A stretch of 49,277 nucleotides of DNA, from contig ONWU01000012.1 in assembly GCA_900321655.1 (NCBI GenBank), positions 1 to 49,277 on the forward strand, given 5' to 3'. A model generated the notes under the pieces. It searched no databases and was not told the DNA's origin. It saw only the letters and a list, made by a program, of their open reading frames with translations. The position numbers were made by a program, and so were the translations under genes. The stretch is from an uncultured Bacteroidales bacterium (GTDB lineage: Bacteria > Bacteroidota > Bacteroidia > Bacteroidales > UBA932). Positions 7,744 to 46,828 of the stretch are shown piece after piece (the first letter of the stretch is position 1; each line of letters begins with the position of its first letter).

Positions 7744-7817
7744 TGATCCCGTCGGGATTCGAACCCGAGACCCACAGCTTAGAAGGCTGTTGCTCTATCC
7801 AGCTGAGCTACGGAACC
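7744..7817 (-). tRNA. tRNA-Arg (anticodon UCU)
   Basis: The minus strand reads a complete cloverleaf: acceptor GGTTCCG with CGGGATC, D-loop GCTCAGCTGGATAGAGC, anticodon loop CTTCTAA with TCT in the centre, and T-arm GGGTTCGAATCCC. The discriminator base is A, and CCA is encoded at 7743-7741. The TCT anticodon reads AGA/AGG. The 5' half overlaps the end of the reading frame of the secreted protein upstream. The 3' end is the probable attachment site of the integrated element. Confidence 0.95.
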
Positions 7818-27939: not shown

Positions 27940-28914
27940 ATGATGAAAGATTCCGTTTTAGATCAGGCTGTTGCCCAGCTTTTCAATACCATCGAGTTCC
28001 AGGCTCAGCCCGCCGGTCTCTACGACCCTCTCCGCTATATGGTGGCCATCGGCGGCAAACGCATCCGTCCCCGGCTTTGCCTTACTACGTATGGCATTTA
28101 TGCCCAGGATCTTACGCCCTCCATTCTGCAGCCCGCCGCAGGCCTGGAAGTGTTCCATACCTTCACCCTCATCCACGACGACATTATGGACCGCAGCCCC
28201 CTTCGCCGCGGTCACGATACGGTCTGGAAAAAATGGAGCGAAGACACGGCCATTCTCAGCGGAGACGTCATGTGCATTGATGCGTACAAGCGCGTAGCGC
28301 AGGCCCCGCCTGCGGTTCTGCCCCAGGCCCTGGCCCTGTTCTCCAAGACGGCGGCCGAGGTGTGCGACGGCCAGCAGCTGGATATGGACTTCGAGCAGTG
28401 CGGCATTGTGCCGATGGAAGAGTATATGAAAATGATCGGCCTCAAGACGGGTGTCCTCATCGCCTGCGCCGCGCAGATGGGCGCCCTCATCGCCGGGGCG
28501 GATGCCCACAGCCAGCAGTGCCTGTATGACTATGGCTACCAGCTGGGCCTGGCCTTCCAGGTGGCGGACGACTATCTGGATGCCTACGGAGACCAGAAGG
28601 TGTTTGGCAAGCCCATCGGAGGAGATATTCTCAATGAAAAGAAGTCCTGGCTCACGGTGAAAGCCAACGAACTGGGTGCTACGGGGCTGGAAGAGGCCCT
28701 GGCCGCTCCGGCCGTCACTGCCGGGCAGAAGGAAGACAAGATTCGCCGCGTGATGGACATTTACGAGAGCGTGGGCATTGCCCAGGCGGCCCGGGAAGCC
28801 ATAGGAGAGCTCAGCGACAGCGCCATTGCCAAGGCTTCCGCCGCTTCCATGGACCAGGAGGGCTTCGAGAGCCTCAGGCGCTTTGCGGATTCCCTGGTAG
28901 GCCGCGTCAAATGA
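27940..28914 (+). CDS. Polyprenyl diphosphate synthase
   Basis: A 324-aa trans-prenyltransferase. GGKRIRPRLCL (38-48), the first Asp-rich motif HDDIMDRSPLRRG (about 79-91), KTGVLIACAAQMG, and the second Asp-rich motif QVADDYLDAYGD followed by FGKPIGGDILNEKKS are all intact. It condenses isopentenyl diphosphate onto an allylic diphosphate through Mg2+ bound to the two Asp motifs. Product length (GGPP, octaprenyl for quinones, or other) cannot be read safely. The pathway connects to dxs at 46.8 kb. Two adjacent ATGs (27940 and 27943) are possible starts. Its TGA overlaps the ATG of the U32 gene. Confidence 0.92.
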   Translation: MMKDSVLDQAVAQLFNTIEFQAQPAGLYDPLRYMVAIGGKRIRPRLCLTTYGIYAQDLTPSILQPAAGLEVFHTFTLIHDDIMDRSPLRRGHDTVWKKWSEDTAILSGDVMCIDAYKRVAQAPPAVLPQALALFSKTAAEVCDGQQLDMDFEQCGIVPMEEYMKMIGLKTGVLIACAAQMGALIAGADAHSQQCLYDYGYQLGLAFQVADDYLDAYGDQKVFGKPIGGDILNEKKSWLTVKANELGATGLEEALAAPAVTAGQKEDKIRRVMDIYESVGIAQAAREAIGELSDSAIAKASAASMDQEGFESLRRFADSLVGRVK

Positions 28915-30212
28915 TGGACCGGAAAGAACTGGAGATAATGGCTCCTGCAGGCAACTTCGGTTGCCTCACCGCCGCTGTGGAAGGGGGCGCCAATTCCGTG
29001 TACTTCGGCATCGGCCACCTGAATATGCGGTCCCATTCGGCCAACAATTTCTCCCGGGAAGACCTCCCGGAGATAATGCGCATCTGCCGCGCGTACGGAA
29101 TCCGCGGCTATATGACGCTGAATATCACCCTTTTCGGAGAAGATCTCCAGGCAGCATATGAAACGCTGGACGCCGCCAAGGCCGCCGGGGTGGATGCCAT
29201 CATCGCCTCCGACATGGCCTGCATCCTGTACTGCCGGAAAATCGGCCTGGAGGTGCATATCTCCACGCAGCTGAGCATTTCCAACATAGAGTCCCTGCGC
29301 TTTTATTCCCAGTGGGCCGATGTGGTGGTGCTGGCCCGGGAGCTGAACCTGGAGCAGGTGAAGGCCATTCACGAAGCCATCGTTTCCGAAAACATCTGCG
29401 GCCCTTCCGGGCAGCTGGTCCGTATAGAAATGTTCGCCCACGGGGCCTTCTGTATGGCCACTTCCGGCAAGTGCTACCTTTCGCTGGCGGCCTACGGAGA
29501 AAGCGCCAACCGCGGCGCGTGCATGCAGGTCTGCCGCCGGGGTTACGTGGTAACAGACTACGAAACGGGTTTCCAGGTGCACATAGACAACAAGTACCTG
29601 ATGTCTCCCAAGGACCTCTGTACCATCGATTTCCTGGACAAGTTCGTGGATGCGGGCGTGAAGGTGTTCAAGATTGAAGGCCGGGCCCGCAGTGCAGACT
29701 ATGTGAACATTACCTCGGAGTGCTATCGAGAGGCGGCCGATGCCGTGGCCGACGGAACCTATACCCCGGAGCTGGGCGCTTCCTATAAGGAGCGGCTGGC
29801 CACCGTCTTCAACCGCGGCTTCTGGGACGGCTATTACCTGGGAGCGCCGATGGGCGAGTGGAGCGCCAAGTACGGCAGCAGCGCCACCCGCACCAAGGTG
29901 TATGTGGGCAAGGTGACCAACTGGTTTGCCAGGATTGGCGTGGCGGAGATCCAGGTGGAGGCCGCGCCGCTGCGCAAGGGGCAGGACCTTCTGTTTATCG
30001 GCAACACCACCGGTATGCTGGAAATGAAACTGGAAGACCTCTGGCTGGACTTCAAGCCTGTTGAGGAGGTTCCCCAGGGCGTCCGCTGCTCTGTGGCCGT
30101 TCCACTGGATGCTATGCCCCAGGACCAGGTGAACGCCGATGCTGCTCCCGGAGAGAGAATCCATCCCAGAAGGGGAGATAAGGTGTATATCTGGACGTTT
30201 TCCAAAAAATGA
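28911..30212 (+). CDS. Peptidase U32 family protein (TrhP/YegQ type)
   Basis: A 433-aa protein. It begins ELEIMAPAGNFGCLTAAVEGGANSVYFGIG, the usual U32 barrel start, and has the signature EMFAHGAFCMATSGKCYLSLAAYGESANRGACMQVCRRGY, whose Cys residues are the probable iron-sulfur ligands. KVFKIEGRARSADYV closes the catalytic part, and the last 100 residues form a small beta domain. Members once called peptidases are now known in E. coli and Bacillus to hydroxylate tRNA wobble uridine (TrhP) or 23S rRNA (RlhA); the short single-domain form fits the tRNA role best. Translationally coupled to both neighbours by 4-base overlaps. Confidence 0.85.
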   Translation: MMDRKELEIMAPAGNFGCLTAAVEGGANSVYFGIGHLNMRSHSANNFSREDLPEIMRICRAYGIRGYMTLNITLFGEDLQAAYETLDAAKAAGVDAIIASDMACILYCRKIGLEVHISTQLSISNIESLRFYSQWADVVVLARELNLEQVKAIHEAIVSENICGPSGQLVRIEMFAHGAFCMATSGKCYLSLAAYGESANRGACMQVCRRGYVVTDYETGFQVHIDNKYLMSPKDLCTIDFLDKFVDAGVKVFKIEGRARSADYVNITSECYREAADAVADGTYTPELGASYKERLATVFNRGFWDGYYLGAPMGEWSAKYGSSATRTKVYVGKVTNWFARIGVAEIQVEAAPLRKGQDLLFIGNTTGMLEMKLEDLWLDFKPVEEVPQGVRCSVAVPLDAMPQDQVNADAAPGERIHPRRGDKVYIWTFSKK

Positions 30213-31360
30213 CGCGTATGAAACCAATCAAGCATAAACTCTCCAGAAGCATAGTGGAGGCGGTTGTTTTCCTCACCCTCCTGGTTGTCGTCTTTACGCT
30301 GCTGGGCACCCGGATGGGCGGGGCCAATATGATCAAGACCATTATGAACACGGCTCACGACCTCCTTCTGAACACCGTGTTCTACCTGATGGGCATTACG
30401 GTCCTGACGGGCGCCCTGTCCAAACTGATGTCGGAGTTCGGGGTGGTGAGCCTGCTGGAAAAGGTGCTCCGGCCCCTGATGAAACCGCTCTACAACCTCC
30501 CCGGCGTGGCGGCCCTCGGCGGTGTAATGACGTTCCTCTCGGATAATCCGGCCATCATTGCCCTTTCCAAGGACAAGAAGTTTGCGTCCTATTTCAAGAA
30601 ATACCAGCTCATCTCCCTTACCAATTTTGGTACGGCCTTCGGTATGGGCTTCGTGGTCATAGTGACGATGGTGGGCTACACCCAGGTGGGAGCGGCCCTG
30701 GTGGGTTTTGTAGGGGCCATCTGCGGCTCCATCATTTCTACCCGCCTGATGCAGAGAAGCTGTCTGAAAGACTATCCCGAACTGGATTCTCCCGTATCGG
30801 CCACCCTGGAGGAAGGCTTCCCGGAACTGGAGGAAAAGCAGAAGAAGGACAGCGTGTTCATGCGCTTTCTCAACGCCATCCTGGACGGCGGTAAAAACGG
30901 TGTAGAGTTGGGTCTGCAGATTATCCCGGGCGTTCTCATCATCACCACGGCCGTCATTATGATTACCTTCGGCCCGGGCGAAGGGGGCGTGTATGACGGC
31001 TCTTCCTCACAGGGTGTTCCCATCCTGCCCTGGCTGGCAGAGAAGATTCACTGGGTGTTCGAATGGCTGTTCGGCTTCAAGGATATGGAACTCATCGCCT
31101 TCCCGATGACGGCCCTTGGCGCCGTGGGAGCCTCCCTGGGCCTTCTTCCCACCTTCAATGCCGCCGGTATCCTGGACGGTAACGCCATCGCCGTCTTCAC
31201 CGCCATCGGTATGTGCTGGAGCGGTTTCCTCTCCACCCACACCGCTATGCTGGACTCCCTGGGCTACCGCAAGGTTATTTCCAAGGCCCTGGGCGCCCAC
31301 ACCATCGCCGGTCTGTGTGCAGGTGTCATCGCCCACTTCCTCTTCCTCCTTTTCTTCTAA
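30209..31360 (+). CDS. Multi-span membrane protein with Gate-type domains
   Basis: A 383-aa protein with about nine hydrophobic segments (about 17-33, 49-66, 90-106, 134-154, 157-173, 234-252, 288-308, 320-338 and 360-381). Two similar halves contain the pattern of the nucleoside-recognition/Gate fold (GGVMTFLSDNPAIIALSKDKK and FGTAFGMGFVVIVTMVGY). Related proteins are annotated as CD0519/CD1768-type or YjiH-like membrane proteins; the substrate is not known. The start is uncertain: an ATG at 30209 overlaps the U32 stop, and an ATG at 30218 follows closely. It ends 1 base before repeat copy A. Confidence 0.65.
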   Translation: MTRMKPIKHKLSRSIVEAVVFLTLLVVVFTLLGTRMGGANMIKTIMNTAHDLLLNTVFYLMGITVLTGALSKLMSEFGVVSLLEKVLRPLMKPLYNLPGVAALGGVMTFLSDNPAIIALSKDKKFASYFKKYQLISLTNFGTAFGMGFVVIVTMVGYTQVGAALVGFVGAICGSIISTRLMQRSCLKDYPELDSPVSATLEEGFPELEEKQKKDSVFMRFLNAILDGGKNGVELGLQIIPGVLIITTAVIMITFGPGEGGVYDGSSSQGVPILPWLAEKIHWVFEWLFGFKDMELIAFPMTALGAVGASLGLLPTFNAAGILDGNAIAVFTAIGMCWSGFLSTHTAMLDSLGYRKVISKALGAHTIAGLCAGVIAHFLFLLFF

Positions 31361-31361
31361 T

Positions 31362-31468
31362 CCCCTCTCCGCCGCAGCAAGCACTTTTGCCCAAAAACGC
31401 TTGCTGCGGCGTTGTGTGTGACGTGACAGCAAGCGAAAAGTGTCAAAAGTGCGGTGCGCGGTGTAAGG
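31362..31468 (+). repeat. 107-bp structured REP-like repeat, copy A
   Basis: It starts CCCCTCTCC and ends GTGTAAGG. It contains a perfect 12-bp inverted pair, GCCGCAGCAAGC (31371-31382) and GCTTGCTGCGGC (31399-31410), with a 16-base loop. A second, mutually exclusive fold is possible: GCACTTTTG (31381-31389) pairs with CAAAAGTGC (31444-31452), with CGCTTGCTG (31398-31406) and CAGCAAGCG (31427-31435) nested inside. By hand alignment it differs from copy B at 6 of 107 positions and from the inverted copy C at 6. It sits just after a stop codon, upstream of the RAYT-type gene, in the same orientation as copy B. Confidence 0.95.
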
Positions 31469-31574
31469 CTAATTCTAACGTATTATCAATGTGAGAGATT
31501 CTAAAGAAAAGGCATAAGGATTTATCTCATAATCATTTGATTAATATCCGATTATAAGGCAAAATATTTTTCTT

Positions 31575-32519
31575 GTGAAAGATGAAAGAATCTATTTCCT
31601 TTGTCTTATGAATATCAGGAAAAAAAGAGAATCATATCGCAAGGGAGAAGAAGGGTACTACCACTTATGCACAGACGGATGGAAAGACGGTTTAATCTTT
31701 CATAATGCCGCGCAGTTTGCATATGGCCTGATTGTACTTGGACTTCTATGTCTTCGGTTTAATCTGACCATCTACGCTTTTGCTCTAATGCCCAATCATA
31801 TACATCTAATCTTAAAAGGAACAGGGGCTGTCTGTCTGGATGCATTTGATTACTTAAAGCATAAACTCTCTGTCCGTCTCAAGCAGGATGGTCATCCTCC
31901 TCTGCCTGAAGATTATTGGTTCAAGCTAGTGAAGATTGAGGATGAAGAACAGCTTAAACGTGAAATAATATATGTCCTTCGCAATCCCTTGGAAAAGGGA
32001 CAGTATACCGTTGGAGGATATCTGTGGGCAAGCGGGTGGCTCTACTTCTCCGATTTGGTCTATGCCATGGAAGGCACTTCAGCCGCGTCTATGTCCAAGA
32101 GGAGTAAGATCAAATACTTCACCAGCGAGCAGGACATTCCGAACCATTGGATCGCGCATCCTTTTCTGGGCCTTCGCCCGGACTCTTTTGTAGATACGTC
32201 CCTGGTAGAAAAGCTATTTCCTTCTCCAAAAGACTTACGAACGGCACTGGTCAAGGACTACGAAGTTTACTTCCAGATTGCCAGCCGCTTAGGAGAATTA
32301 TGTGAATTCAGTAAGAACGAGATTGCCGGAATAGTGAATCAGACCTTGCAGAAGCGGTTTGGCGGGAGAAATCTGAAGAACCTTACAGAGGAGGATAAAG
32401 GGAAAATGGCCATCATTTTAAATAGAGAGTTCGGCCTAACGTCATATCAAATCTCTACGTCCATCTTCCTCAAAGAACTCGTAGTGCGGCAATTCCTTTC
32501 TTCCAAAGAACTACGATAA
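31575..32519 (+). CDS. REP-associated tyrosine transposase (RAYT, IS200-like Y1/HUH)
   Basis: A 314-aa protein from a GTG start; an ATG at 31608 would give 303 aa and begins closer to the usual family start. The HUH motif is in ALMPNHIHLILKG (His75, His77), and the single catalytic Tyr133 lies in EIIYVLRNPLEKG. The C-terminal 110 residues are helical and likely bind DNA, longer than plain IS200/IS605 transposases, as in RAYTs. RAYTs nick and rejoin single-stranded REP hairpins and are thought to spread them. Two copies of a 107-bp hairpin repeat flank this gene in direct orientation, with a third elsewhere. The gene is AT-richer than its neighbours and lacks the ATCGGCC word, pointing to recent arrival. 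Confidence 0.88.
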   Translation: MKDERIYFLCLMNIRKKRESYRKGEEGYYHLCTDGWKDGLIFHNAAQFAYGLIVLGLLCLRFNLTIYAFALMPNHIHLILKGTGAVCLDAFDYLKHKLSVRLKQDGHPPLPEDYWFKLVKIEDEEQLKREIIYVLRNPLEKGQYTVGGYLWASGWLYFSDLVYAMEGTSAASMSKRSKIKYFTSEQDIPNHWIAHPFLGLRPDSFVDTSLVEKLFPSPKDLRTALVKDYEVYFQIASRLGELCEFSKNEIAGIVNQTLQKRFGGRNLKNLTEEDKGKMAIILNREFGLTSYQISTSIFLKELVVRQFLSSKELR

Positions 32520-32524
32520 TCCTT

Positions 32525-32631
32525 CCCCTCTCCGCTGCAGCAAGCACTTTTGCCAAAAAACGCTTGCTGCGGCGTTGTATGTGACGTGACAGCAAGCGAA
32601 AAGTGTCAAAAGTGCGGGTTGCGGTGTAAGG
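32525..32631 (+). repeat. 107-bp structured REP-like repeat, copy B
   Basis: Same orientation as copy A. It begins 5 bases after the RAYT stop and ends 17 bases before the RNase R stop on the other strand. One arm of the main hairpin carries a C-to-T change (GCTGCAGCAAGC) that leaves a G-U pair. The long-range pair GCACTTTTG/CAAAAGTGC is kept. The differences from A cluster near the 3' end (GGGTTGC instead of GGTGCGC). Confidence 0.95.
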
Positions 32632-32648
32632 GCGGCCGCAGCAAGGGA

Positions 32649-34781
32649 CTACTTCTTTTTCCGGCGGGTGCGGGGACGGCGTTCCTTCGTGGCCATGGCC
32701 CGTTCCATATCCGCCTCGGGGCTTTCCGGCTCCGGGGCGGAAGCCGTTTCGGGAAGGTCTTCCACCAGTTCGTAGTCCAGGAGCTTCTGCTCCAGGGAGG
32801 TGTTCTTAACGCGGATGCGGAGAGGGTCTCCCAGGCGGATGGAGCGGTGGGAGCGGCGGCCGACGGCACGGTAGTGGTCTTCGTCGAAGATGAAGAAGTC
32901 GCTCTTGATGGTGCGGTAAGGGATCATTCCCTCAATCTTGGTGGGTTCAATCTCCACATAGATGCCCCATTCGGTGACACCGGAGACGTGTCCGTCGAAT
33001 TCCTGGCCCACCTTGTCCTGCATGAATTCCACCAGCTTGTACTTGATGCTCTCCCGTTCGGCCTCGGCGGCCACCACTTCGCGTTCGGAGGCGTGTTTGC
33101 ACTGGAGGGCATAGTAATCGGCATTGGCGCTGTCCCCTCCGGCCAGATAGCGGGCCAGCAGGCGGTGCACCATCATATCCGGATAGCGGCGGATGGGGGA
33201 GGTGAAGTGGGTGTAGAAATCGAAGGCCAGGCCGTAGTGGCCGATATTATCTATGGAATAGCAGGCCTTGGCCATGGAGCGTAGGGCCAGGATCTGGATG
33301 GCGCCCATTTCCGGCTTGTCCTTCACTTCCACCATCAGGTCGTTAAGGGCGTGGGCCACGTCTTTTCCATTGCCGATGGGTCCCATCTTGTGGCCCAGGT
33401 TGCCGGCAAAGTCCCGAAGGCCGCTCAGCTTTTCCATATTGGGAAGGTCGTGGATACGATAGACGAAGGTTTTGGCCTTGGCCTGCGCCTTGCCGTTCAT
33501 CTTGCCGCCCGTAGCCACATACTCCGCCACCGAGCGGTTGGCCAGCAGCATAAACTCCTCGATGAGCCAGTTCGCTTCCTTGGAGAACTTCTGGTGTACA
33601 CCGACGGGCTTTCCGTTTTCGTCGATATCCACCTTCATTTCCGGGCGGTCGAAGTTGACGGCTCCGGCCGCAAAACGCTTCTTGCGCAGCTTCAGAGCCA
33701 GTTTATTGAGAATCAGGACGGCTTCCTTCACATCGGCCGGAACTATTCCGCACTCGGAACCGGCACCAAACTCCTGCTCCATCGCAGCGTCTCCGGCCTC
33801 GATGATGGACTGGGCCAGCTCGTAGTCGAAACGGTAGTCCGAGATGATGTTGGTGCGGCCGAACCAGGGATTGATGACCTTGGCCTGGGGTGTTACCTCA
33901 AAGACGGCCGAGAAGGTTAGTTTCTCTTCATTGGGCCGAAGGGAGCACAGCTTGTTGGAGAGTTTTTCCGGAAGCATCGGCACGGTGCGGTCTACCAGAT
34001 AGACGGAGGTGCCGCGGGCCTGGGCCTCTTTGTCCACCGCCGTGTCCGGCTTGACATACCAGGAGACATCGGCAATATGGACACCTACCTCAAAGTTGCC
34101 GTTTTCCAGCTTGCGGAAGCTGAGGGCATCGTCGAAGTCCTTGGCATCGGCCGGGTCTATGGTGAAGGTGAGCACCTTCCGGAAATCCCTGCGATGGGCG
34201 CGGTCCTTGTCCGTAATCTCTTCCGAGATGGAATCGGCCGCATTCTCCACGCTTTTTTCAAAGCGGTAGGGAAGGCCGAATTCCGCCAGGATGGCGTGCA
34301 TTTCCGTTTCGTTCTCTCCAGGCATTCCCAGTACGTCCACCACGTGGCCGAAAGGACCGGCGGCGCCTCTTTCCCAGCCGTCCACCACCGCCGCCACTTT
34401 CATTCCCCGCACCCCGCCTTCCGGGATGGGGACGGAGATGTCGTAGGGCATCGTCTTGGAGCTCATCAGCACCCAGGCCTGCTGGCCAACAATGTGCAGG
34501 AGACCCACAAAAGGCTTGTCGCTCCTCTGGACGATGGAGATGATTTCTCCGCTGCGGCGCTTGGCCGGGCCGGTTTTTTCCTGGGTAACAGCCACCCGCA
34601 CGATGTCTCCGTGCAGGGCGCCCCGGGTTTTGGACGCCTTAACATATACGTCTTCTTCCTGCCCCTCGATGCGCACAAAGGCGAATCCCTCGCGGGACAT
34701 CAGCACTTTTCCCTCGTATTCGGGGACCACTTTCGCTTTCTTGTGATTCTTGCGGTTGGGGCTGTTTTTGCGTCTGGACAT
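32649..34781 (-). CDS. rnr: Ribonuclease R
   Basis: Start set at 34781 (MSRRKNSPNRKNHKK), giving 710 aa; the frame continues 9 codons upstream without support. A lysine-rich N-terminus leads into cold-shock-type OB domains (KVLMSREGFAFVRIEGQEEDVYV). The RNB catalytic domain follows at about 230-560, with TIDPADAKDFDDALSF holding the Mg2+-binding Asp residues and HFTSPIRRYPDMMVHRLLARYL typical of RNase II/R. An S1 domain (GQEFDGHVSGVTEWGIYVEI) and a basic tail (RRPRTRRKKK) close it. The enzyme is a processive 3'-5' exonuclease that degrades structured RNA, including rRNA and mRNA. Own promoter at 34806-34813. Confidence 0.94.
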   Translation of the reverse strand: MSRRKNSPNRKNHKKAKVVPEYEGKVLMSREGFAFVRIEGQEEDVYVKASKTRGALHGDIVRVAVTQEKTGPAKRRSGEIISIVQRSDKPFVGLLHIVGQQAWVLMSSKTMPYDISVPIPEGGVRGMKVAAVVDGWERGAAGPFGHVVDVLGMPGENETEMHAILAEFGLPYRFEKSVENAADSISEEITDKDRAHRRDFRKVLTFTIDPADAKDFDDALSFRKLENGNFEVGVHIADVSWYVKPDTAVDKEAQARGTSVYLVDRTVPMLPEKLSNKLCSLRPNEEKLTFSAVFEVTPQAKVINPWFGRTNIISDYRFDYELAQSIIEAGDAAMEQEFGAGSECGIVPADVKEAVLILNKLALKLRKKRFAAGAVNFDRPEMKVDIDENGKPVGVHQKFSKEANWLIEEFMLLANRSVAEYVATGGKMNGKAQAKAKTFVYRIHDLPNMEKLSGLRDFAGNLGHKMGPIGNGKDVAHALNDLMVEVKDKPEMGAIQILALRSMAKACYSIDNIGHYGLAFDFYTHFTSPIRRYPDMMVHRLLARYLAGGDSANADYYALQCKHASEREVVAAEAERESIKYKLVEFMQDKVGQEFDGHVSGVTEWGIYVEIEPTKIEGMIPYRTIKSDFFIFDEDHYRAVGRRSHRSIRLGDPLRIRVKNTSLEQKLLDYELVEDLPETASAPEPESPEADMERAMATKERRPRTRRKKK

Positions 34782-34805
34782 AGTTCTATAATCTAGGATA
34801 CCACA

Positions 34806-34813
34806 CAAAGATA
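34806..34813 (-). promoter_or_regulatory. -7 element of the rnr promoter
   Basis: The minus strand reads TATCTTTG, an exact TAnnTTTG, 24 bases before the rnr start. A TTG about 18 bases upstream, at 34834-34832, may serve as -33. It lies just past the recO stop, so rnr has its own transcript, perhaps with read-through from recO. Confidence 0.7.
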
Positions 34814-34824
34814 CGCAAAATCTG

Positions 34825-35481
34825 CTAGCGGTACAACTCGCGCAGTACCTGCAGGGATTTCACCTGGATGTTGGTATCCGTGTGGTAAGACAGGTAGCGG
34901 AGCAGCACGTCGCAGAGTGCGTTGCGGTTCTCCCCGGAAAGAGGGAGAAGCATAGAAACTTCGAAACTGCTTTCCAGGAAGGGCTTCAGGCGCGGCAGCT
35001 GTTCCCCGGCAAAGGGAGCGATGTCCTGCAGGGTGGGCCGGAAGCCCAGCGCTCCCGCCAGTTCCAGCAGGAAGCGGATGTGGAAATTGGAAAAGTCGCT
35101 CTCCAGGGCATTGAGGGTGAGGATTTCCCCCACGCACCACTCATAGAGCCCCTCCTCATTGGTTCCGTCCCTGAGGGTTCTGAGAAGCACCTCGGAGAGG
35201 AACAGGGTCATCGTATTTTTGTGGATGTTGTTCCGGATACCGGAAAGGGCATCTTTGGGGCCGATATGCCTCAGGCTCCAGAGTTCCGACCGGGGGTTTT
35301 CCACCACTTCGGCCTCCAGGATATTCAGCGGCAAAAAGCGGGACATCCCGGCCTTGGCGCCGGAGTGCACCAAAAAACCCCGCCGGCCCCACTCCCGGGA
35401 AAGGGTATGGACGACCAGCGCTTTTTCTCCCACTTTCGTGGTAGAGAGGACAATGAGTTCGATGGTTTCTCCGGAGGCCAT
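34825..35481 (-). CDS. recO: DNA repair protein RecO
   Basis: A 218-aa protein. The N-terminal OB fold (ETIELIVLSTTKVGEKALVVHTLSREWGRRGFLVHSG) and a helical C-terminal domain ending in NIQVKSLQVLRELYR match Bacteroidetes RecO. The zinc-binding Cys set of some RecO proteins is absent; only isolated Cys residues are seen, as is common in this phylum. RecO loads RecA on SSB-coated single strands with RecR. Its ATG overlaps the TAA of the upstream pyrophosphatase gene by one base (TAATG), so the two are co-translated. Confidence 0.85.
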   Translation of the reverse strand: MASGETIELIVLSTTKVGEKALVVHTLSREWGRRGFLVHSGAKAGMSRFLPLNILEAEVVENPRSELWSLRHIGPKDALSGIRNNIHKNTMTLFLSEVLLRTLRDGTNEEGLYEWCVGEILTLNALESDFSNFHIRFLLELAGALGFRPTLQDIAPFAGEQLPRLKPFLESSFEVSMLLPLSGENRNALCDVLLRYLSYHTDTNIQVKSLQVLRELYR

Positions 35482-36101
35482 TACTGTTTGAGGTACTCCG
35501 CCATGGCGCGCAGGGCCTTGCCCCGGTGAGAAATGGCGTTTTTCACGGCCTCGCCCAGCTGGGCATTGGTTTTCTCGTAGCCCTCGGGAATGAAAATGGG
35601 GTCGTAGCCGAAGCCTCCGCGGCCGGCGGGAGCATAGGCGATGCGGCCTTCCATCACTCCGTCAAAGAAATGATGCTCTCCATTCATTACCAGGGTAACG
35701 GAGGTGCGGAACCGCGCCTGTCGGTTGGCCTTCGCCGTGGTAACACCGTTGGTGCGTGCCATTGCGGCCTCTTTCTCCCGGCGGGCTATTTCCGTCAGCA
35801 GCTTGGCCATATTGGCCTTAGGATCTTTCTGGGGGCCGGCATAACGGGCGGTTTCTACACCCGGGGCTCCTCCCAGGATGTCTACTTCCAGGCCGGAATC
35901 ATCCGCGAAGCACGGCAGTCCGGTCTTTTTGAAAATGTAATCGGCCTTCTGCATGGAGTTGGCCCTGAGGGTGTTGCCCGTTTCAGGGAGCTCTTCCGTA
36001 ATGCCTAATGACGCGGGGGTAACGAGCTCAAAACCCTCGCCCAGAATTTCTTCCGCTTCCCGGATTTTTCCGGGGTTGCCCGTTGCAAATACAATCTTCA
36101 T
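35481..36101 (-). CDS. rdgB: XTP/dITP pyrophosphatase (RdgB/HAM1 family)
   Basis: A 206-aa protein with the family start MKIVFATGNPGKIREAEEIL, PCFADDSGLEVDILGGAPGVETARYAG (active-site Asp and substrate loop), FDGVMEGRIAYAPAGRGGFGYDPIFIPEGYEKTNAQL and NAISHRGKAL. All motifs are intact. It hydrolyses ITP, dITP and XTP to monophosphates, cleaning the nucleotide pool. An insert of about 15 residues after EKEAAMAR (ending QARFRTS) is somewhat longer than in E. coli. First gene of the unit rdgB-recO; promoter at 36127-36134. Confidence 0.93.
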   Translation of the reverse strand: MKIVFATGNPGKIREAEEILGEGFELVTPASLGITEELPETGNTLRANSMQKADYIFKKTGLPCFADDSGLEVDILGGAPGVETARYAGPQKDPKANMAKLLTEIARREKEAAMARTNGVTTAKANRQARFRTSVTLVMNGEHHFFDGVMEGRIAYAPAGRGGFGYDPIFIPEGYEKTNAQLGEAVKNAISHRGKALRAMAEYLKQ

Positions 36102-36126
36102 AAATACACTAATATCTAACCAGCCG

Positions 36127-36155
36127 CAAAGATAGTGATAATTTTTGTATCTTTG
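36127..36155. promoter_or_regulatory. Divergent promoters: rdgB-recO and the S41 protease
   Basis: CAAAGATA at 36127-36134 (TATCTTTG on the minus strand) lies 26 bases before rdgB. TATCTTTG at 36148-36155 on the plus strand lies 57 bases before the protease ATG at 36212. Both are exact -7 matches and sit back to back, 13 bases apart. Confidence 0.75.
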
Positions 36156-36211
36156 TCAACTGGCATCTTCTTTGAAGATGAATGGTGCAGTTCCAACGAC
36201 AAACCGATAAG

Positions 36212-37828
36212 ATGAAAAAAACCATTATACTATGGGCCCTCGCGGCCTTCTTTTTTGCCTCGATGCCGGCGGCATCGGCCCAGTCCAGGAGTTTCAATAT
36301 GGCCAAGTGGGTGGAAGTATACAATTCCATCCTCAAGGAACTCAACCGCTCGTATGTGGATTCCCTGGAAGCCGGACGCATCCAGCGGGCCGGTATAGAT
36401 GCCATGCTCTCTGCCCTGGACCCTTACACGCTGTATGTGCCGGAGGAAGAGAGGGAAGATTTCCAGATGATGCTCACCAATACCTACGGAGGCATCGGCG
36501 CCATCATCTACAAGCCGGAGGTGAACGGAAACGTAATCATCAATGAACCTTACGAGAACTCCCCGGCCGCCCGGGCCGGCATCCGCTGCGGAGACGAGGT
36601 CCTGGCCATTGACGGGGTGTCCACCCACGGCCTCACCAGCGCCCAGAGCAGCGACCGGATGAGGGGAAAACCCGGCACCACGGTGGTTCTCACCATCCAG
36701 AAACTGCGCGGGGAAACCCTGGACGTGCCGGTGGTGCGGGAGCGCATCTCCCTTCCTTCCGTGCAGTATGTGGGTATGCTCAATGAGGCCGATGGCTATA
36801 TTCTCCTGGACAAGTTTACCGAAGGAGTGGGCCAGGCCATCCGGGAAGGCTACCATACGCTCAAGGACCAGGGAATGAAGCGCCTGGTGCTGGATCTTCG
36901 CGGCAACGGCGGCGGCCTGCTGAACGAAGCCGTGAACATCGTTTCCCTCTTTGTCCCGCGCGGTTCGGTGGTGGTTACCGCCAAGGGCCGGCAGGCCGGT
37001 TCCGAGGAAGTTTACAAGACTACTTCAGACCCTGTGGATACGGAAATACCCATCCTGGTGCTGGTGGATTCCGGCAGTGCATCGGCCTCCGAGATTGTCT
37101 CCGGCGCTCTCCAGGACTATGACCGCGCCACCATCGTGGGCACCCGCACCTACGGCAAGGGCCTGGTGCAGAGCATCCGCCCTATGCCCTACGACGGCCA
37201 GCTGAAGGTGACCACGGCCAAGTATTACACCCCTTCGGGCCGATGCGTCCAGGCCATCGACTATTCCCACCGCAACGAAGACGGCTCCGTGGGCTTCATC
37301 CCGGATTCCCTCACCCACGAGTTCACCACCGCCCACGGCCGCAAGGTGCGGGACGGCGGCGGCATCACCCCGGATTTCACGGTTAAGGCCCAGCGCTACT
37401 CCCGCCTCACGTACTCCCTGGTACTGAGCGGTATCGTGGAGCAGTACGCCCTCAAATATGTTCAGGAGCACGAGAGCATTCCCACCGTGGAAGACTTCCA
37501 CTACACGGATTACGAAGACTTCGTGGCTTATGCGAAGGACAAGGAGTTCGACTACCGCTCATCGGCCCGCGCCCTCTTTGACGAAATGAAGAAAGCCCTC
37601 ACCGAAGACGGTCTCACCCAGGCCGTATCGACGGAACTGGATGCCCTGGAGAAGTCCCTGGATATGGACAAGGCCACCTTCCTGCGCCTGAAAAAGGACG
37701 AGATCATCCCCTTCATCGAAGAAGAGATCGTGGTCCGCTATTACTTCCAGGCTGCTGGCATCCGCGTCCGCATCCGCTACGACAACCAGCTGCACGAGGC
37801 CCTCAAGCAGCCCGCCATCAGCTGGTAA
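36212..37828 (+). CDS. S41 C-terminal processing peptidase (CtpA/Prc type)
   Basis: Start set at 36212, where MKKTIILWALAAFFFASMPAASAQS is a good signal peptide; an in-frame ATG at 36182 adds 10 polar residues. The 538-aa protein has a PDZ domain (about 75-165; YGGIGAIIYK and SPAARAGIRCGDEVLAIDG) and the S41 catalytic domain with nucleophile Ser289 in DSGSASASEIV and Lys316 in GTRTYGKGLVQ. A long helical C-terminal part (about 400-538) follows, as in other Bacteroidetes members. It cleaves proteins from their C-terminus in the periplasm; targets are unknown. Repeat copy C starts 10 bases after its stop. Confidence 0.92.
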   Translation: MKKTIILWALAAFFFASMPAASAQSRSFNMAKWVEVYNSILKELNRSYVDSLEAGRIQRAGIDAMLSALDPYTLYVPEEEREDFQMMLTNTYGGIGAIIYKPEVNGNVIINEPYENSPAARAGIRCGDEVLAIDGVSTHGLTSAQSSDRMRGKPGTTVVLTIQKLRGETLDVPVVRERISLPSVQYVGMLNEADGYILLDKFTEGVGQAIREGYHTLKDQGMKRLVLDLRGNGGGLLNEAVNIVSLFVPRGSVVVTAKGRQAGSEEVYKTTSDPVDTEIPILVLVDSGSASASEIVSGALQDYDRATIVGTRTYGKGLVQSIRPMPYDGQLKVTTAKYYTPSGRCVQAIDYSHRNEDGSVGFIPDSLTHEFTTAHGRKVRDGGGITPDFTVKAQRYSRLTYSLVLSGIVEQYALKYVQEHESIPTVEDFHYTDYEDFVAYAKDKEFDYRSSARALFDEMKKALTEDGLTQAVSTELDALEKSLDMDKATFLRLKKDEIIPFIEEEIVVRYYFQAAGIRVRIRYDNQLHEALKQPAISW

Positions 37829-37838
37829 GCGCCCGGCC

Positions 37839-37945
37839 CCTTACACCGCGCCCCGCACTTTTGACACTTTTCGCTTGCTGTCACGTCACACACAACGCCG
37901 CAGCAAGCGTTTTTTCATGAAAGTGCTTGCTGCGGCGGAGAGGGG
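37839..37945 (-). repeat. 107-bp structured REP-like repeat, copy C (inverted)
   Basis: Reverse orientation to copies A and B, between the convergent ends of the protease and TolC genes. The perfect 12-bp hairpin (GCCGCAGCAAGC/GCTTGCTGCGGC) is kept, but the loop is changed to ACTTTCATGAAAAAAC, so the long-range pair loses two of nine base pairs. Five of its six differences from copy A are in this loop. The copy lies 6-7 kb from the transposase gene, showing that the repeat exists apart from it. Confidence 0.95.
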
Positions 37946-37963
37946 AGGACCCAACAACGGGCC

Positions 37964-39277
37964 CTACAGTTTCAACTGGCCTCCGCGGTAGAAATCTACC
38001 AACGAAGTCTGGTACAGGCACTCGTAAGTAGCCTGGACGGAATCTGACTGGGCCTTCACCAGACGGGTGAGGGCTTCGTTGAATTCGGTGGTGGTGGCTT
38101 TGCCGTTCTCGTATTTGGCCTTGGTGAGCTGGAAGGCGTCTTCGGCCGCGGCCGCGGCTTCCAGGGAGGCGGCATACTTGGCCCGGGAGGCTACGGCCGC
38201 GTTCCAGGCCTGCTGGATTTCCTTATACAGGGCGTGCTGTACGCGGAGCAGCTGCAGTTCCTGGTTGTGGTACTGCACCTTGGCGGAACGCACCTGATTC
38301 CTCAGAGTCAGTTTGTTGAAGATGGGAATGTTCAGGGACAGGCCCACGTGCTGGCTGAAGTTGGAGTTGAGCTGGTCCCAGAAGCCGCGGGTGGCGAAGG
38401 AAGTGTAGTAGTTGGTTCCCAGGCCACCGCTGAGGGAGAGGCTGGGGTAACGGGCCGCCTTGGCAATCTGGATCTGCTTTTTGGCTCCTTCCAGGCGGAT
38501 CTGCTCGGCGTGGATGGCCGGGCGCACCTGCACGGCGTCGGCGTAGATATCGTCCGGGCTGGGAAGATAGGAAGATTCAAAAGTGACCTTGGGCCGATAC
38601 ACGTGGAAGCCGTCCCAGCCGGGGAGTTCCAGCAGCTGGGCCAGCGTGAGGAGGGACGTGCGGATGTTGTTCTCGGCATTGACCAGCGTCACGTGGCTCT
38701 GGGCCAGGGTGGCCTTCTGCTGGGAAACCTCGGCGGCCGATGCGCGTCCGGTGTCGAACATCCCCTGCAGGCGGGCCACCTGCATAGAGTCTATCTGCAC
38801 CTGACGACGGGCCACTTCCCGGATTTCATAGTTGTACAGGATCTGGACATAGGCCTGGGCCACCTGGACGCTGATGTCATCGCGGGCCTTCTGGAGGTCT
38901 GCCGTGGCGGCTTCCAGGTTCAGCTTGGCCAGCTGGATGCGGCGGGGCGTGGCCAGGCCGTCAAACAGCGTCATTGAGGAGTTGAGGGAGAAACTGGTGG
39001 AAGAGCTGTTTCCCTTTTCGTAGGTGTTGTTGCCACCCAGGCCACGGCCGAAGCTCCAGTTCTGGCTGGCCGATCCTCCCACGGAGGGCAGCCAGGACAT
39101 CTGGGCCGTCTGGTTATCAATCTTGCGTCCCTCTACCGTGAGTTCACTTCCGGCTACGGTGAGGTTGTGGTCCATAGCCCAGTCTACGCATTCTTGGAGC
39201 GTCCAGGGGTGCGAGAAATCCGGCAGGGAGTCCGTAGGGGCGGTGAGAACCGCCAGGGCAATCAGGAGCGTTTTCAT
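37964..39277 (-). CDS. TolC-family outer-membrane efflux protein
   Basis: A 437-aa protein with a short signal peptide (MKTLLIALAVLTAPTDS). It carries the OEP repeats: WTLQECVDWAMDHNLTV at the start of the first helical hairpin, FSLNSSMTLFDGLATPRRI (a beta-barrel strand pair) and the second hairpin with QVRPAIHAEQIRLEGAKKQI and LSLNIPIFNKLTLRNQVRSAK. The length fits the family. It forms the outer-membrane duct of the tripartite exporter encoded just upstream. Last gene of the operon, 6 bases after the adaptor gene. Confidence 0.93.
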   Translation of the reverse strand: MKTLLIALAVLTAPTDSLPDFSHPWTLQECVDWAMDHNLTVAGSELTVEGRKIDNQTAQMSWLPSVGGSASQNWSFGRGLGGNNTYEKGNSSSTSFSLNSSMTLFDGLATPRRIQLAKLNLEAATADLQKARDDISVQVAQAYVQILYNYEIREVARRQVQIDSMQVARLQGMFDTGRASAAEVSQQKATLAQSHVTLVNAENNIRTSLLTLAQLLELPGWDGFHVYRPKVTFESSYLPSPDDIYADAVQVRPAIHAEQIRLEGAKKQIQIAKAARYPSLSLSGGLGTNYYTSFATRGFWDQLNSNFSQHVGLSLNIPIFNKLTLRNQVRSAKVQYHNQELQLLRVQHALYKEIQQAWNAAVASRAKYAASLEAAAAAEDAFQLTKAKYENGKATTTEFNEALTRLVKAQSDSVQATYECLYQTSLVDFYRGGQLKL

Positions 39278-39283
39278 AGTAAC

Positions 39284-40375
39284 TTACTTGCTGTTAATGA
39301 TCTGAGGGCCGCGAACCTTGTCGGAAGTAGAGAGCCCTTCCTTGATTTCAATCTTTACGCCGTCGGAGAGGCCGGTAACCACCGGGCGCTTTTCATACCC
39401 TTCGGCCCCCATCACGTAGACAAAGGTGTCTTCACCTTCAAACTGAAGGGCGCTTTCCTCAATGGTGAGGACGTTCTCGGCCCGCTGCAGTTCAATTTCG
39501 GCATTGGCGCTGTAGCCGCTGCGGATGGTGACGTCGCCGGGAACCTGTACGGATGCCTTGATCTCGAAGAGGTTGGTGCCGCCGGAAACGGTGGCCTTGG
39601 GGGCGATATATTCCAGGGCGGCGTCGAAGGAAAGGTCCTTCAGGGCACCCACGGTGATGCGAACGGGCAGGCCGATATGCAGCATCCCCACTTCCGTCTC
39701 GTCGATGTTGCCGTCGAAGATGAGGTCGTCCATATTGGCCACCGTGGCGATGGTGGTACCGTCGTTGAAGGTGTTGGACATCGTGACGGAATTACCCACT
39801 TTCACCGGCACGTCCAGGATAAGACCGGAAATGGTGGAACGGATAAGGGTGGTACTGCCGCTCTTGTTGGCCGATGAAACGCCGTCCCGCACAATCTCCA
39901 GGGTCTCTTTGGCGATGGAGTGCTCTTCCTGGGCCTGTTTGAGGGCCTGGGATACCTTCTCGAAGGATTCGGCGCTCACCAGCTGCTGGTCGAAGAGCTT
40001 CTTCTCACGGTCGTAGTTCACCTGGGCTTGCTTGAGGTTCACTTCAGACAGGCGCACGCGGCTCTGGGCCGACGACAGCTGGTTCATATCCGGAATCACC
40101 TTCAGCTTGGCAATCACCTCGTTCTGCTGCACCATCTCGCCGGCTTTCTTGTACACCTCGGCCACGATGCCGTTGATTTGGGGTTTCACGTTCACTTCGT
40201 CGCGGGGCTGGATCTTGCCCGTGACCACGGTGGATTTGGAGATGGTGCCCATTTCGGGCGTGAGCTCCTCATACACAATTTCTTTGGGCTGGGACCGCTT
40301 GAACAGGTAGGCGAAAGTGCCCACGAAGGCGGCGGCCACCACAACAATCATCAGGATTCGGAAAAACTTTTTCAT
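39284..40375 (-). CDS. Periplasmic adaptor (MacA/HlyD type)
   Basis: A 363-aa membrane-fusion protein. One N-terminal TM helix (residues 6-26) is followed by a barrel-sandwich (lipoyl-like) half GTISKSTVVTGKIQPRDEVNVKPQINGIVAEVYKKAGEMVQQNEVIAKL, then a coiled-coil hairpin (95-155, with SRVRLSEVNLKQAQVNYDRE), the second lipoyl half and beta-barrel domains. It bridges the inner-membrane ABC permeases and the TolC-type duct. The order of genes (ATPase, permease, permease, adaptor, duct) fits a MacAB-like exporter; the substrate is unknown. Confidence 0.93.
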   Translation of the reverse strand: MKKFFRILMIVVVAAAFVGTFAYLFKRSQPKEIVYEELTPEMGTISKSTVVTGKIQPRDEVNVKPQINGIVAEVYKKAGEMVQQNEVIAKLKVIPDMNQLSSAQSRVRLSEVNLKQAQVNYDREKKLFDQQLVSAESFEKVSQALKQAQEEHSIAKETLEIVRDGVSSANKSGSTTLIRSTISGLILDVPVKVGNSVTMSNTFNDGTTIATVANMDDLIFDGNIDETEVGMLHIGLPVRITVGALKDLSFDAALEYIAPKATVSGGTNLFEIKASVQVPGDVTIRSGYSANAEIELQRAENVLTIEESALQFEGEDTFVYVMGAEGYEKRPVVTGLSDGVKIEIKEGLSTSDKVRGPQIINSK

Positions 40376-40393
40376 ATAACTAACAACTATTTA

Positions 40394-41653
40394 TTATTCA
40401 TCTCTCATAGCGTCCACAGGCTTGATCTGCATAGCACGGGCGGCCGGCATAAGACCGGCTACAACGCCCAGCACGGTAAGCAGGGAGGCGGCCAGGATGG
40501 CCGTCCAGAAGGGCACCTGGAAGGGGGCTTTCAGCATACCATCTTCCGTCATCCCCAGTTCTACGCCGTGTAATATCAGCACGCTGAATACGATGGCCGA
40601 CAGCCCCGCCACCAGCGTAAGGACGATACTTTCGGAAATAATCTGGCTCAGGATCTGGTTGGGCGTGGCGCCGATGGCGCGGCGGATGCCAATCTCCGTG
40701 GTGCGTTCCTTCACGCTCACCATCATGATATTGGAAACGCCGATGACGCCGGCCAGCAGGGTGCCCAGGCCGATGAGCCATACAATGAAGTTGACGCCCT
40801 TGAACAGATTGTCCACAATTCCGAAAAGGAGCTGCGTGTTGAGCAGGAAAAGAGCCTGGTCGTCGGTGGGGTCTATATAATGCTTCCGGGCAATCAGCTC
40901 CTGCACCCGCGGCGTAACATCGCTCATCGTAATGCCCGGCTTGGCCGTGAAACACAGCATATGCACGGTATTTCCCAGGTTATAGGCCCTTCTGGCCTGG
41001 TTGAGGGGAATGGTTACCGCCTCACTGGCGCGGCCATTGATGCTGATGCTGTTGTTATCTCTCCAGTCTACGCCCACGATGGTATAGTAACTGCCTTCGA
41101 TGCTGATGCGCTCGCCCAGCGGGGAGCCTCCCTCCGGGAAGAGTTCTTCATAGATACGCCGGCCGATCACGCACACCTTTCGCTCCTGCAGGTTGTCGGC
41201 GTCATTGATCCATCGGCCATATTTGATCTGCGGGGTCTCGATATTGGCATAATCGGGCCGGGCGCCTTTGACTACGGCGCGGGAAGAGACGTTTTCGCCG
41301 CGCGAGACGCTCTTGCCCCAAAGGCTGACGGACGGGGTGACGGTTTCCAGTTCGGGAATCATCGCCTTGAGCCGGTCCACATCGTCGTAGTCCAGGTTCC
41401 AGGTGCGGCCTTTCTCGAAGCCTTTGTAAGGCTTGGACGTACTGTTGGCAAAGGCAATGCAGGTGTTCTGGGCAAAACCGGAAAAGTTCTGCACCAGGAG
41501 CTGTTTGAATCCCTGCCCGCCGCCGGTGAGGAGCATCAGCATAAAGACGCCCCAGAACACACCGAATCCGGTGAGGAAGCTGCGGCTCTTGTTCCGCAGG
41601 AGGCTGTCCAGGATTTCCCGGAAAGTATCTGTATCAAACCACTTTTTCATCAT
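40394..41653 (-). CDS. ABC transporter permease (MacB/FtsX type), second
   Basis: A 419-aa protein: one TM near 25-47 (SFLTGFGVFWGVFMLMLLTGGG), a MacB-type periplasmic domain of about 210 residues, then three TMs (about 290-312, 338-365, 380-402) with the FtsX signature GVIGVSNIMMVSVKERTTEIGIRRAIGATPNQI. It is 35-40% alike by eye to the neighbouring permease, so the pair probably forms a heterodimer on the shared ATPase. The start overlaps the previous stop by 4 bases. Confidence 0.9.
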   Translation of the reverse strand: MMKKWFDTDTFREILDSLLRNKSRSFLTGFGVFWGVFMLMLLTGGGQGFKQLLVQNFSGFAQNTCIAFANSTSKPYKGFEKGRTWNLDYDDVDRLKAMIPELETVTPSVSLWGKSVSRGENVSSRAVVKGARPDYANIETPQIKYGRWINDADNLQERKVCVIGRRIYEELFPEGGSPLGERISIEGSYYTIVGVDWRDNNSISINGRASEAVTIPLNQARRAYNLGNTVHMLCFTAKPGITMSDVTPRVQELIARKHYIDPTDDQALFLLNTQLLFGIVDNLFKGVNFIVWLIGLGTLLAGVIGVSNIMMVSVKERTTEIGIRRAIGATPNQILSQIISESIVLTLVAGLSAIVFSVLILHGVELGMTEDGMLKAPFQVPFWTAILAASLLTVLGVVAGLMPAARAMQIKPVDAMRDE

Positions 41654-42915
41654 TCGGCCCTCAATGCTTCTATGGGTTTAACACGTGCCGCTTTCCAGGC
41701 GGGGATGGCCCCGGCCAGGGTTCCGGCGACAATAAGCAGCAGGGTGGCTTCCAGGGCCACGTCCAGTCCCACATTGGGATTCACCAGCATCCGGATTTCT
41801 TCTCCGCCGATGTTCACCACATCCTGGGCCACGGTCTTGTCCATTATCTGGCAGGCCACCATTCCCATAAACATTCCGATGTAGCCGAATACGGCGGTGA
41901 TGCTGATGCTTTCTGCAATGATCAGTTTGAGGATGGCTCCGGGTTTGGCACCGATGGCCTTCCGGATTCCGAACTCGTGGGTGCGCTCTTTCACGGTGAT
42001 GAGCATGATGTTGCTCACCCCTACGATGCCGCTCACCAGGGTGAGGATGCCCAGGATCCATAAGGCCGTGCGGATCATCCGGGAAGCTTTATGCATTTGC
42101 AGGTTTTCGGTGTAGCCGTTGTTAACCCAGAGGCCGCGGTTGTCATCGGGGGCTATGTGGTGCCGGGCTTTGATGCCGGCGGTATAATTTTTTTCAAAAG
42201 CCCGGTGCTCTTCCAGCGTATTGGGCCCGTTTACGGTAAAGGAGATGGCCTCAACCTTGTCGGAAGGGTCGTAGATTCCCTTGTAGGTAGAGTAGGGTAT
42301 GGGACACAGGCGGGTCATATTGGATTCGTCGGTGCTGTAGATCCCAACCACCCGGAAGGCTACGCTTCCGGTGTTGATCCATTGGCCCACCAGCTTCTCC
42401 GGATTCTTGGGAAGCAGTTCCTTGGCCTGGGCCGAACTCACCACAATGGATTTGCGGTTTTCGCGGACATCGTCCGGATTCAGGAAACGGCCGGCAGCCA
42501 TCCTGATTTTTTCCTGCTGCTGGTATTCGGGCATAACTCCCCGGAGGGAACCGGCAACGGATAAGCCATTGAGGGAAAGCGTGGCGCTGGTGAAGGCCGT
42601 GGCGAGGGATACGTTTTCAATGGTACCCTGCCAGCGGGGAGCCTGGGTGTAGTCAAGGTCTGTCTGGTCCAGCTGGATATCGCGGCCTTCCTTGTATCCG
42701 GCGTACGGCATAGAGGTGCGCCATCCTTCCACCGTGACACTCTCGGAAATGTACTCCTGCATATTCCCCATAAAGGAATTCATCAGGCCGTTGCCGGCTC
42801 CCAGAAGGGCGATGAGAAGGAAAATGCCCCAGCTCACCGCAAAACCCGTGAGGGCCGTGCGGAGCTTGTTGTTCCGGAGGGAACTGGCAATTTCGTGGAT
42901 AATTTCTATTCTCAT
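41650..42915 (-). CDS. ABC transporter permease (MacB/FtsX type), first
   Basis: A 421-aa protein with the same plan as its neighbour: TM1 at about 20-42 (ALTGFAVSWGIFLLIALLGAGNG), a periplasmic MacB_PCD domain, then the FtsX domain with GIVGVSNIMLITVKERTHEFGIRKAIGAKPGAILKL and two more helices. Its start overlaps the ATPase stop by one base (TAATG). FtsX/MacB proteins move cargo by mechanotransmission rather than through a pore in the inner membrane, so the exported molecule is probably picked up in the periplasm (peptide, lipid or lipoprotein). Confidence 0.9.
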   Translation of the reverse strand: MRIEIIHEIASSLRNNKLRTALTGFAVSWGIFLLIALLGAGNGLMNSFMGNMQEYISESVTVEGWRTSMPYAGYKEGRDIQLDQTDLDYTQAPRWQGTIENVSLATAFTSATLSLNGLSVAGSLRGVMPEYQQQEKIRMAAGRFLNPDDVRENRKSIVVSSAQAKELLPKNPEKLVGQWINTGSVAFRVVGIYSTDESNMTRLCPIPYSTYKGIYDPSDKVEAISFTVNGPNTLEEHRAFEKNYTAGIKARHHIAPDDNRGLWVNNGYTENLQMHKASRMIRTALWILGILTLVSGIVGVSNIMLITVKERTHEFGIRKAIGAKPGAILKLIIAESISITAVFGYIGMFMGMVACQIMDKTVAQDVVNIGGEEIRMLVNPNVGLDVALEATLLLIVAGTLAGAIPAWKAARVKPIEALRAE

Positions 42916-43631: not shown

Positions 43632-43663
43632 TTTTGCTGCTGTATTAGTATTCTATTACACTG

Positions 43664-43671
43664 CAAAGTTA
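43664..43671 (-). promoter_or_regulatory. -7 element of the exporter operon
   Basis: The minus strand reads TAACTTTG, an exact TAnnTTTG, 32 bases before the ATPase ATG. A/T-rich DNA lies upstream, with no sharp -33 TTTG. The divergent MFS gene starts at 43818; no equally clean -7 element was found for it. Confidence 0.65.
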
Positions 43672-43817
43672 ATACAGATTTTTTATTCTGCAAATAAAAT
43701 TTCAATTATCTGACGAAAAACAGTTCCACACGGTTGGCTTTTTGCAGCAAAAAACCGGCCAATTGGATAATTTTTATTAATTTAGCGGCTTCAAAAGACA
43801 ATAATAAGATTCACGAT

Positions 43818-46810: not shown

Positions 46811-46828
46811 TTTATTCGGAAAAATATG

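Follow-up and report, generated by a model that had tools for sequence, protein, structure and literature searches.

A RAYT-like gene with its own REPIN-like repeats at a site of gene inversions in an uncultured Bacteroidales bacterium

The locus and its RAYT-like protein

The window is the whole stretch of DNA analysed, 49,277 nucleotides of contig ONWU01000012.1, from a 2.11-Mb draft genome of an uncultured Bacteroidales bacterium (59 contigs, 82% complete). This source genome is labelled G000; other G-numbers denote genomes of the same genus and L-numbers fetched loci. The order in the window is U32 (+), transporter (+), repeat copy A, the RAYT-like gene (+), repeat copy B, rnr (−), an ORF at 34825–35481 (−), rdgB (−), S41 (+), repeat copy C (−) and TolC-like (−), with A, B, and C sitting 1–17 nt from gene ends (Table 1). 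The names U32, Gate-type transporter, RNase R, RdgB, S41, TolC-like, MFS, and DXP-synthase are taken from profile or annotation matches. The ORF at 34825–35481, presumably recO, had no NCBIfam match at 1e-10. Rfam at the gathering threshold found only tRNAs (5) in the whole window, of which four stand in a row close to the contig end (48789–49148) and the fifth is at 7744–7817.

Table 1. Features of the RAYT locus in window coordinates
Feature	Position	Strand	Remarks
Repeat copy A	31362–31468	+	Inverted doublet of ~43-nt palindromes; 1 nt past the transporter stop codon
First palindrome of A	31370–31411	+	13-bp perfect stem, 16-nt loop; −19.6 kcal/mol, z −5.9
Leader of RAYT gene, AT-rich	31469–31607	+	26.6% GC
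RAYT-like HUH/Tyr gene, 303 aa, helical C-terminal half	31608–32519	+	Likely ATG start; alternative GTG start at 31575
Catalytic codons	His64 31797–31799; His66 31803–31805; Tyr122 31971–31973		By arithmetic from the ATG
Repeat copy B	32525–32631	+	94% identical to A; left inversion breakpoint versus G294
Segment with rnr, ORF 34825–35481, rdgB-like, S41 protease	32632–37838	.	Inverted in G294; inverted within a longer segment in G321
Repeat copy C	37839–37945	−	94% identical to A; right inversion breakpoint; 10 nt past the S41-protease stop codon
Stretch beyond C	37946–46803	.	In G321, a repeat copy adjoins each end (two contigs), which would fit an inversion

An earlier reading of the DNA letters (the sequence-only reading) had placed an HUH/Tyr transposase of the RAYT type between two direct repeat copies. 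The layout is confirmed: A and B are 107–108 bp long and 94% identical in an ungapped alignment, and B is recovered with A as query at E = 1.2e-42, which rules out a chance match. The RAYT gene (44.2% GC) is indeed AT-richer than the window (55.3%), but the repeats, which had been called GC-rich, match their surroundings at 54–58%. The start codon is likely the ATG, which is kept by close relatives and is better supported than the GTG; the residues given before as His75, His77, and Tyr133 are correct for the GTG start and become His64, His66, and Tyr122 when counted from the ATG.

Profile and fold both support the assignment to the RAYT type. The protein scores 25 bits with the NCBIfam profile REP_Tyr_transpos (NF047646), below the curated cut-off of 80, and 18 with Pfam Y1_Tnp, below the cut-off of 23; because of the first of these scores we file it as a variant rather than as a plain RAYT member. 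Within the family, REP_Tyr_transpos reaches E ≤ 0.1 for 28 of the 37 members, with 2.1e-9 as the best value. The AlphaFold model (mean pLDDT 91, from a 37-row alignment) has as its best PDB match 4er8, a RAYT with a REP hairpin (E 1.4e-4; TM 0.66 by target, 0.38 by query), followed by ISDra2 and IS608 TnpA. His64, His66, Tyr122, and Asn126 are invariant in all 37 alignment rows, and the His-His-Tyr set is kept in 94/94 rows of a wider set that includes E. coli RayT and 12 other Bacteroidota proteins. The C-terminal residues, about 150 in number, are mostly helical in the model; profile searches gave only scattered weak HTH-type matches for this half, and no name could be assigned to it. Judged from sequence and model, the protein is a remote relative of RAYT/TnpA-REP, in a lineage-specific long form of about 303 aa with a predicted helical C-terminal extension.

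The family and phylum surveys scored at most 7 or 11 candidates per genome. With a long-form profile (E ≤ 1e-25), matches were found in 90 of 199 genomes of the bacterium's own family, from 11 of 25 genera. Across 296 genomes of the phylum (E ≤ 1e-15), full-length matches among the candidates scored were confined to the bacterium's own genome, and 10 other genomes matched over the catalytic core only. The 12 other Bacteroidota proteins from this survey comprise nine of 183–206 aa and three of 284, 323, and 549 aa. The sequence-only reading had proposed placing the protein in a tree: in a tree of the core, the 81 long rows lie on one side of a branch and the 13 others on the opposite side (support 84, not starred), in a set that holds no subclass 2.6 reference by name. 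In the surveys made, the long form occurs in the bacterium's own family only, except for one contig labelled as a Fibrobacter MAG (L047, CAMHDS010000135.1), whose long RAYT is 63% identical; this may reflect transfer or mis-binning. The gene fits the RAYT pattern of one gene per repeat type, as opposed to IS-like multiplication: four paralogs found in the bacterium's own genome are 22–46% identical to the protein, and none of them is a near-copy. After merging of split matches, there are 8 RAYT genes in G000 and 4–12 per genome across six genomes.

Structure and distribution of the repeat

The aligned copies show that the repeat unit consists of two palindromes of about 43 nt in inverted orientation, separated by a short spacer, a REPIN-like doublet. 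The unit is long in comparison with classical REPs, as had been noticed, but this is due to the doubling, and single palindromes also occur (one in G294 and two in G215). The local hairpin described before with 12 bp is present, although its stem in A has 13 perfect pairs around the 16-nt loop; because of a mismatch, the local hairpin of B scores below that of A. Both this hairpin and a long one are possible in the repeat, and the competing long-range structure, also proposed earlier, is the minimum-energy fold in all three copies (−29.1, −24.8, and −24.6 kcal/mol; z −4.5, −3.3, and −3.4). For the long-range fold in 12 copies, 84% of cells are paired (reached by 0/500 shuffles) and 11 cells are changed on both sides (2/500); two other covariation measures are weaker, being reached by 25/500 and 61/500 shuffles, and kinship among the copies can mimic covariation. 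For the local two-hairpin fold, covariation was no better than in shuffles.

The repeat has one REP hallmark, the inverted doublet that can form one long hairpin, and lacks the GT[AG]G foot 5′ of the palindrome: GTAG, GTGG, CTAC, and CCAC are absent from A, B, C, and the 10 nt around them. Nor is the copy number high. Five copies were found in the 82% complete draft: A, B, C, and two diverged copies on contigs C9 and C18, which were partial search matches and proved near full length once aligned. REPs often exceed 100 copies per genome, as reported in PMC2817692. The third full copy and the two diverged ones had been missed in the sequence-only reading; the repeat is thereby not restricted to A and B, and the REPtron-like layout proposed there, a gene with its own repeats on both sides and further copies elsewhere in the genome, is borne out. 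By eye, flanking palindromes at several RAYT loci (G141, G081, L048, and L049 among them) have a loop of 14–16 nt whose GCC or GGCC core sits between A- or T-runs; their stems differ, and many other RAYT loci do not fit this pattern. Long repeat arrays flank some RAYT genes, with a period of about 52 nt in L031 and L047, and the RAYT gene at G016:C4:197783–198613 has a flanking direct repeat of 487 nt. A terminator role of the repeat was considered and is unsupported; the one terminator-like site found lies inside the gene.

Repeats of this kind go with their own RAYT genes, as the sequence-only reading had supposed. Among 50 long RAYT genes of six genomes, 22 are bracketed by a direct repeat (E ≤ 1e-3, within 600 nt on either side), one of them weak (G294:C15, 39 nt long and 562 nt from the gene), and no two-sided repeat was found at the other 28; in a control set of 128 ORFs from 24 fetched loci, all non-RAYT and 200 aa or longer, not one has such two-sided repeats. 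Among 82 RAYTs, similarity of the flanks falls with divergence of the proteins, from 12/12 pairs at RAYT identities of at least 70% to 23/103 at 50–70%, 5/202 at 40–50%, 6/403 at 30–40%, and 9/2601 below 30%; shared descent of the flanks contributes to the similarity at high identity.

The suggestion that copies track the presence of this RAYT holds in part. Intact multi-copy sets occur only in G000, G294, and G321, whose RAYTs are 100, 80, and 80% identical, but four further genomes, drafts of 64–87% completeness, carry copies where no close RAYT was found. G318 has one intact copy, whose location matches that of copies in G294 and, in diverged form, G000, with a best RAYT of 46%; G215 has half-units and no RAYT at E ≤ 1e-20; and G122 and G389 have diverged copies, with best RAYTs of 42 and 48%. 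The search of 400 genus genomes, limited to at most two candidates per genome, gave 22 genomes at E ≤ 0.05, of which 7 were below 1e-4; the 15 at E 0.0066–0.040 (18–37-nt matches) are taken as chance and not as carriers. A smaller search gave 2 of 151 genomes at E ≤ 0.001.

Inversions at the locus and at other RAYT genes

In G294, the order is A, RAYT (+), B, S41 (−), rdgB (+), ORF (+), rnr (+), and a half-copy of the repeat, so that the segment between B and C is inverted relative to the window. This is the single inverted block in the 41.4 kb over which G294 and the window contig align, and its ends lie in B and C. In G321, the order is transporter, repeat, S41 (−), rdgB (+), ORF (+), rnr (+), repeat, RAYT (−), and repeat; here, the segment from A to C is inverted. 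Two contigs of G321 also each join a repeat to sequence from beyond C, one at window position 46803 and the other at 46820, which would fit an inversion of the stretch between C and about 46803 as well; in the window, this stretch has a repeat at one end only (C). Like the window, 8 of 15 other genomes have a contiguous 46803/46820 junction; in the remaining 7, no contiguous one was found. The three genomes with intact repeat sets have three different orders, each within a contig. The RAYT lies in the same gene block in three species.

The block as a whole is variable. Its six genes U32, transporter, rnr, ORF 34825–35481, rdgB, and S41 (window 28911–37828) are all found in 19 genomes of the genus, where they occur in 12 signed orders; in 14 of the 19, no RAYT lies in the block, and the order is scrambled anyway. 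Copy-A-type repeats are absent from all 20 gene-block loci searched. Decayed repeats are one possible reason for the scrambled orders in blocks without a RAYT, and a general hot spot is another. Single genes are seen flipped in place, and the ORF and rdgB stay together in 19/19. Other RAYTs occur at junctions of the same gene block in other species (L122 3870–4814, L129 13857–14684, L187, and L190; 55–65% best match to alignment members); the L129 and L187 genes occupy the S41/TolC-like junction, which is the site of copy C in the window.

The other RAYT families were compared between G000 and G294 over about 139 kb of aligned sequence; both genomes are drafts, and the comparison is assembly based. 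Five RAYT pairs are at least 67% identical, and four have alignable flanks. Each of the four is situated in or next to an inverted block that has inverted copies of a RAYT-side repeat at both ends, either directly there or no more than about 25 nt away. The inverted copies of the C15 block are 109 bp long at 93% identity, and this block alone has long collinear flanks on both sides. Those of the C10 block are 103 bp at 88%, and both contigs end near the block. The C50 block has copies of 56 bp at 75% (52 bp at 87% in G294), one flank of 288 nt, and another rearranged block adjoining it. For C37/C34, where the order is complex, the copies seen in G294 are 19 and 23 nt away from the block ends on the outer side, followed further out by 204-bp copies at 91%, and no repeat copies were found at the block ends in G000.

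Inverted RAYT-side repeats are thus present at both ends, in one or both genomes, of 4 of the 12 rearranged blocks tested; the remaining 8 either lack an inverted match at E ≤ 0.01 or have just a 14-bp one. Blocks with no inverted repeat longer than 14 bp, inverted or moved relative to G294, include G000:C10:9146–12848, C10:25812–29558, C37:15114–17587, and C50:3347–9880. Among 300 random pairs of 200-nt sequences, 5 gave an inverted match at E ≤ 0.01, a control against which matches at the junctions are favoured because some junction windows exceed 200 nt.

Interpretation and relation to known systems

Repeats lie at the ends of gene stretches that are flipped in relatives, and the RAYT/repeat pair may therefore help to reshuffle gene order. 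Our preferred reading, which we regard as probable, is that this gut-bacterium locus holds a REPtron-like pair, a long-form RAYT-type HUH single-strand endonuclease with private low-copy REPIN-like repeats, and that the repeat copies seed local inversions. TnpA-REP is described as binding single-stranded REP, cleaving at a CT dinucleotide on the 5′ or 3′ side of the palindrome, and carrying out strand transfer (PMC8266576). By analogy, the enzyme would bind the folded single-stranded repeat, cleave beside the palindrome with Tyr122, and transfer the strand, which would copy or move the doublet, mostly to places near its own gene. If a third copy inserted a few kilobases away and in the opposite orientation, it would create an invertible segment, whose genes would then be flipped when the host or the RAYT recombines the inverted copies. 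A bolder version, which we consider unlikely, would make the RAYT and its doublets an active inversion system. Here, the enzyme would act on single-stranded DNA, for instance that of the lagging strand, and by cutting and joining it at inverted doublets close to its gene would flip the intervening genes. Many private RAYT/repeat families (4–12 RAYT genes per genome in six genomes) would be turned over, and this would drive the unusually frequent gene-by-gene scrambling of local order in the lineage; some segments would perhaps still switch within populations.

The repeats could also be passive, having spread earlier (through this RAYT or otherwise) and now serving as mere homology for host recombination, with the RAYT uninvolved in the inversions; we put the chances of this at about even. 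Inverted copies of about 50–200 bp can serve host recombination, and the persistence of copies in genomes where no close RAYT was found agrees with it. Against it, every RAYT pair with alignable flanks (4/4) lies in or beside an inverted block, and the C50 inverted copies share 10–14 exact bases, little for homologous recombination, although they may have decayed since. We think it unlikely that repeats and breakpoints coincide simply because both favour gene ends in a rearrangement-prone lineage. Such hot spots would fit the 12 signed orders of the six genes, with no RAYT in the block in 14 of the 19 genomes, and the 8 of 12 rearranged blocks without inverted repeats longer than 14 bp, as well as the 1–17-nt distance of A, B, and C from gene ends and the failure to find a contiguous 46803/46820 junction in 7 of 15 other genomes. 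Yet the sole inverted block in 41.4 kb versus G294 has B and C at its ends, and random pairs seldom match inverted (5/300).

Inverted repeats are sites of assembler misjoins, and in draft metagenome-assembled genomes, the inversions could be artefacts of this kind. The longest exact inverted matches at the junction pairs are only 10–63 nt, however, shorter than usual reads, which makes simple misassembly unlikely in these draft assemblies; as three genomes also have three different orders, each inside one contig, we hold assembly errors to be a very unlikely explanation. That the gene is a degenerate IS200/IS605 insertion sequence with the two repeats as its ends is hardly credible. It would account for the Y1 transposase core and for hairpins on both sides, but the four own-genome paralogs are 22–46% identical with no near-identical transposase copies, the repeats also occur on their own, the top fold match is a RAYT and not an IS TnpA, and the RAYT stays in the same gene block in three species.

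The pair of long-form RAYT and doublet is a lineage-specific RAYT/REPIN variant, and the link between RAYT-side repeats and inversions is new; in the titles and opening abstract lines given by searches of open-licence literature, no mention of the long form or of RAYT-linked inversions in Bacteroidales was found. This link is testable (4/4 alignable pairs between two species) and bears on what RAYTs do for their hosts, for which the lineage offers many diverged RAYT/repeat pairs.

The system shares with the E. coli RAYT/TnpA-REP REPtron (subclass 2.2, PMC6006769; 4er8) the HUH/Tyr core and fold, a gene flanked by its own repeats, and inverted REP pairs. It differs in protein length (303 aa versus 165 aa in E. 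coli), in the C-terminal extension, in the lack of a GTAG foot, in the few copies, and in the longer loops (14–16 nt, many with a GCC core; by eye). The RAYT in the Pseudomonas fluorescens study of REPINs is said to belong to another size class than the one here. The REPINs themselves, as described in PMC3116915, are likewise inverted palindrome doublets that can form one hairpin and are tied to a RAYT; their single units are described as remnants, and single palindromes are seen here too. They number hundreds of copies, in contrast to the few found here, and the palindromes here are longer. In the Marinomonas REPtrons described in PMC8266576, copies also lie close to the gene.

TnpA-Y1 subclass 2.6, mostly from Bacteroidetes, is similar in its phylum, in atypical repeats without GT[AG]G, and in copies elsewhere in the genome (PMC6006769), but its median length is given as 179 aa as compared to about 303 aa here; in the tree, where no 2.6 reference is present by name, the 12 other Bacteroidota proteins (nine of 183–206 aa) all fall across the branch (support 84) from the long form. 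Subclass 2.1/TIRYT resembles the long form in its longer proteins and extra C-terminal domain, which is reported there as HTH-like (PMC6006769, PMC3733652). According to PMC6006769, subclasses with a large C-terminal domain are without REPs, and no REP-like flanks were found for subclass 2.1, whereas here, 22 of 50 genes have two-sided repeats; the size class described here joins a long C-terminal extension with cognate repeats.
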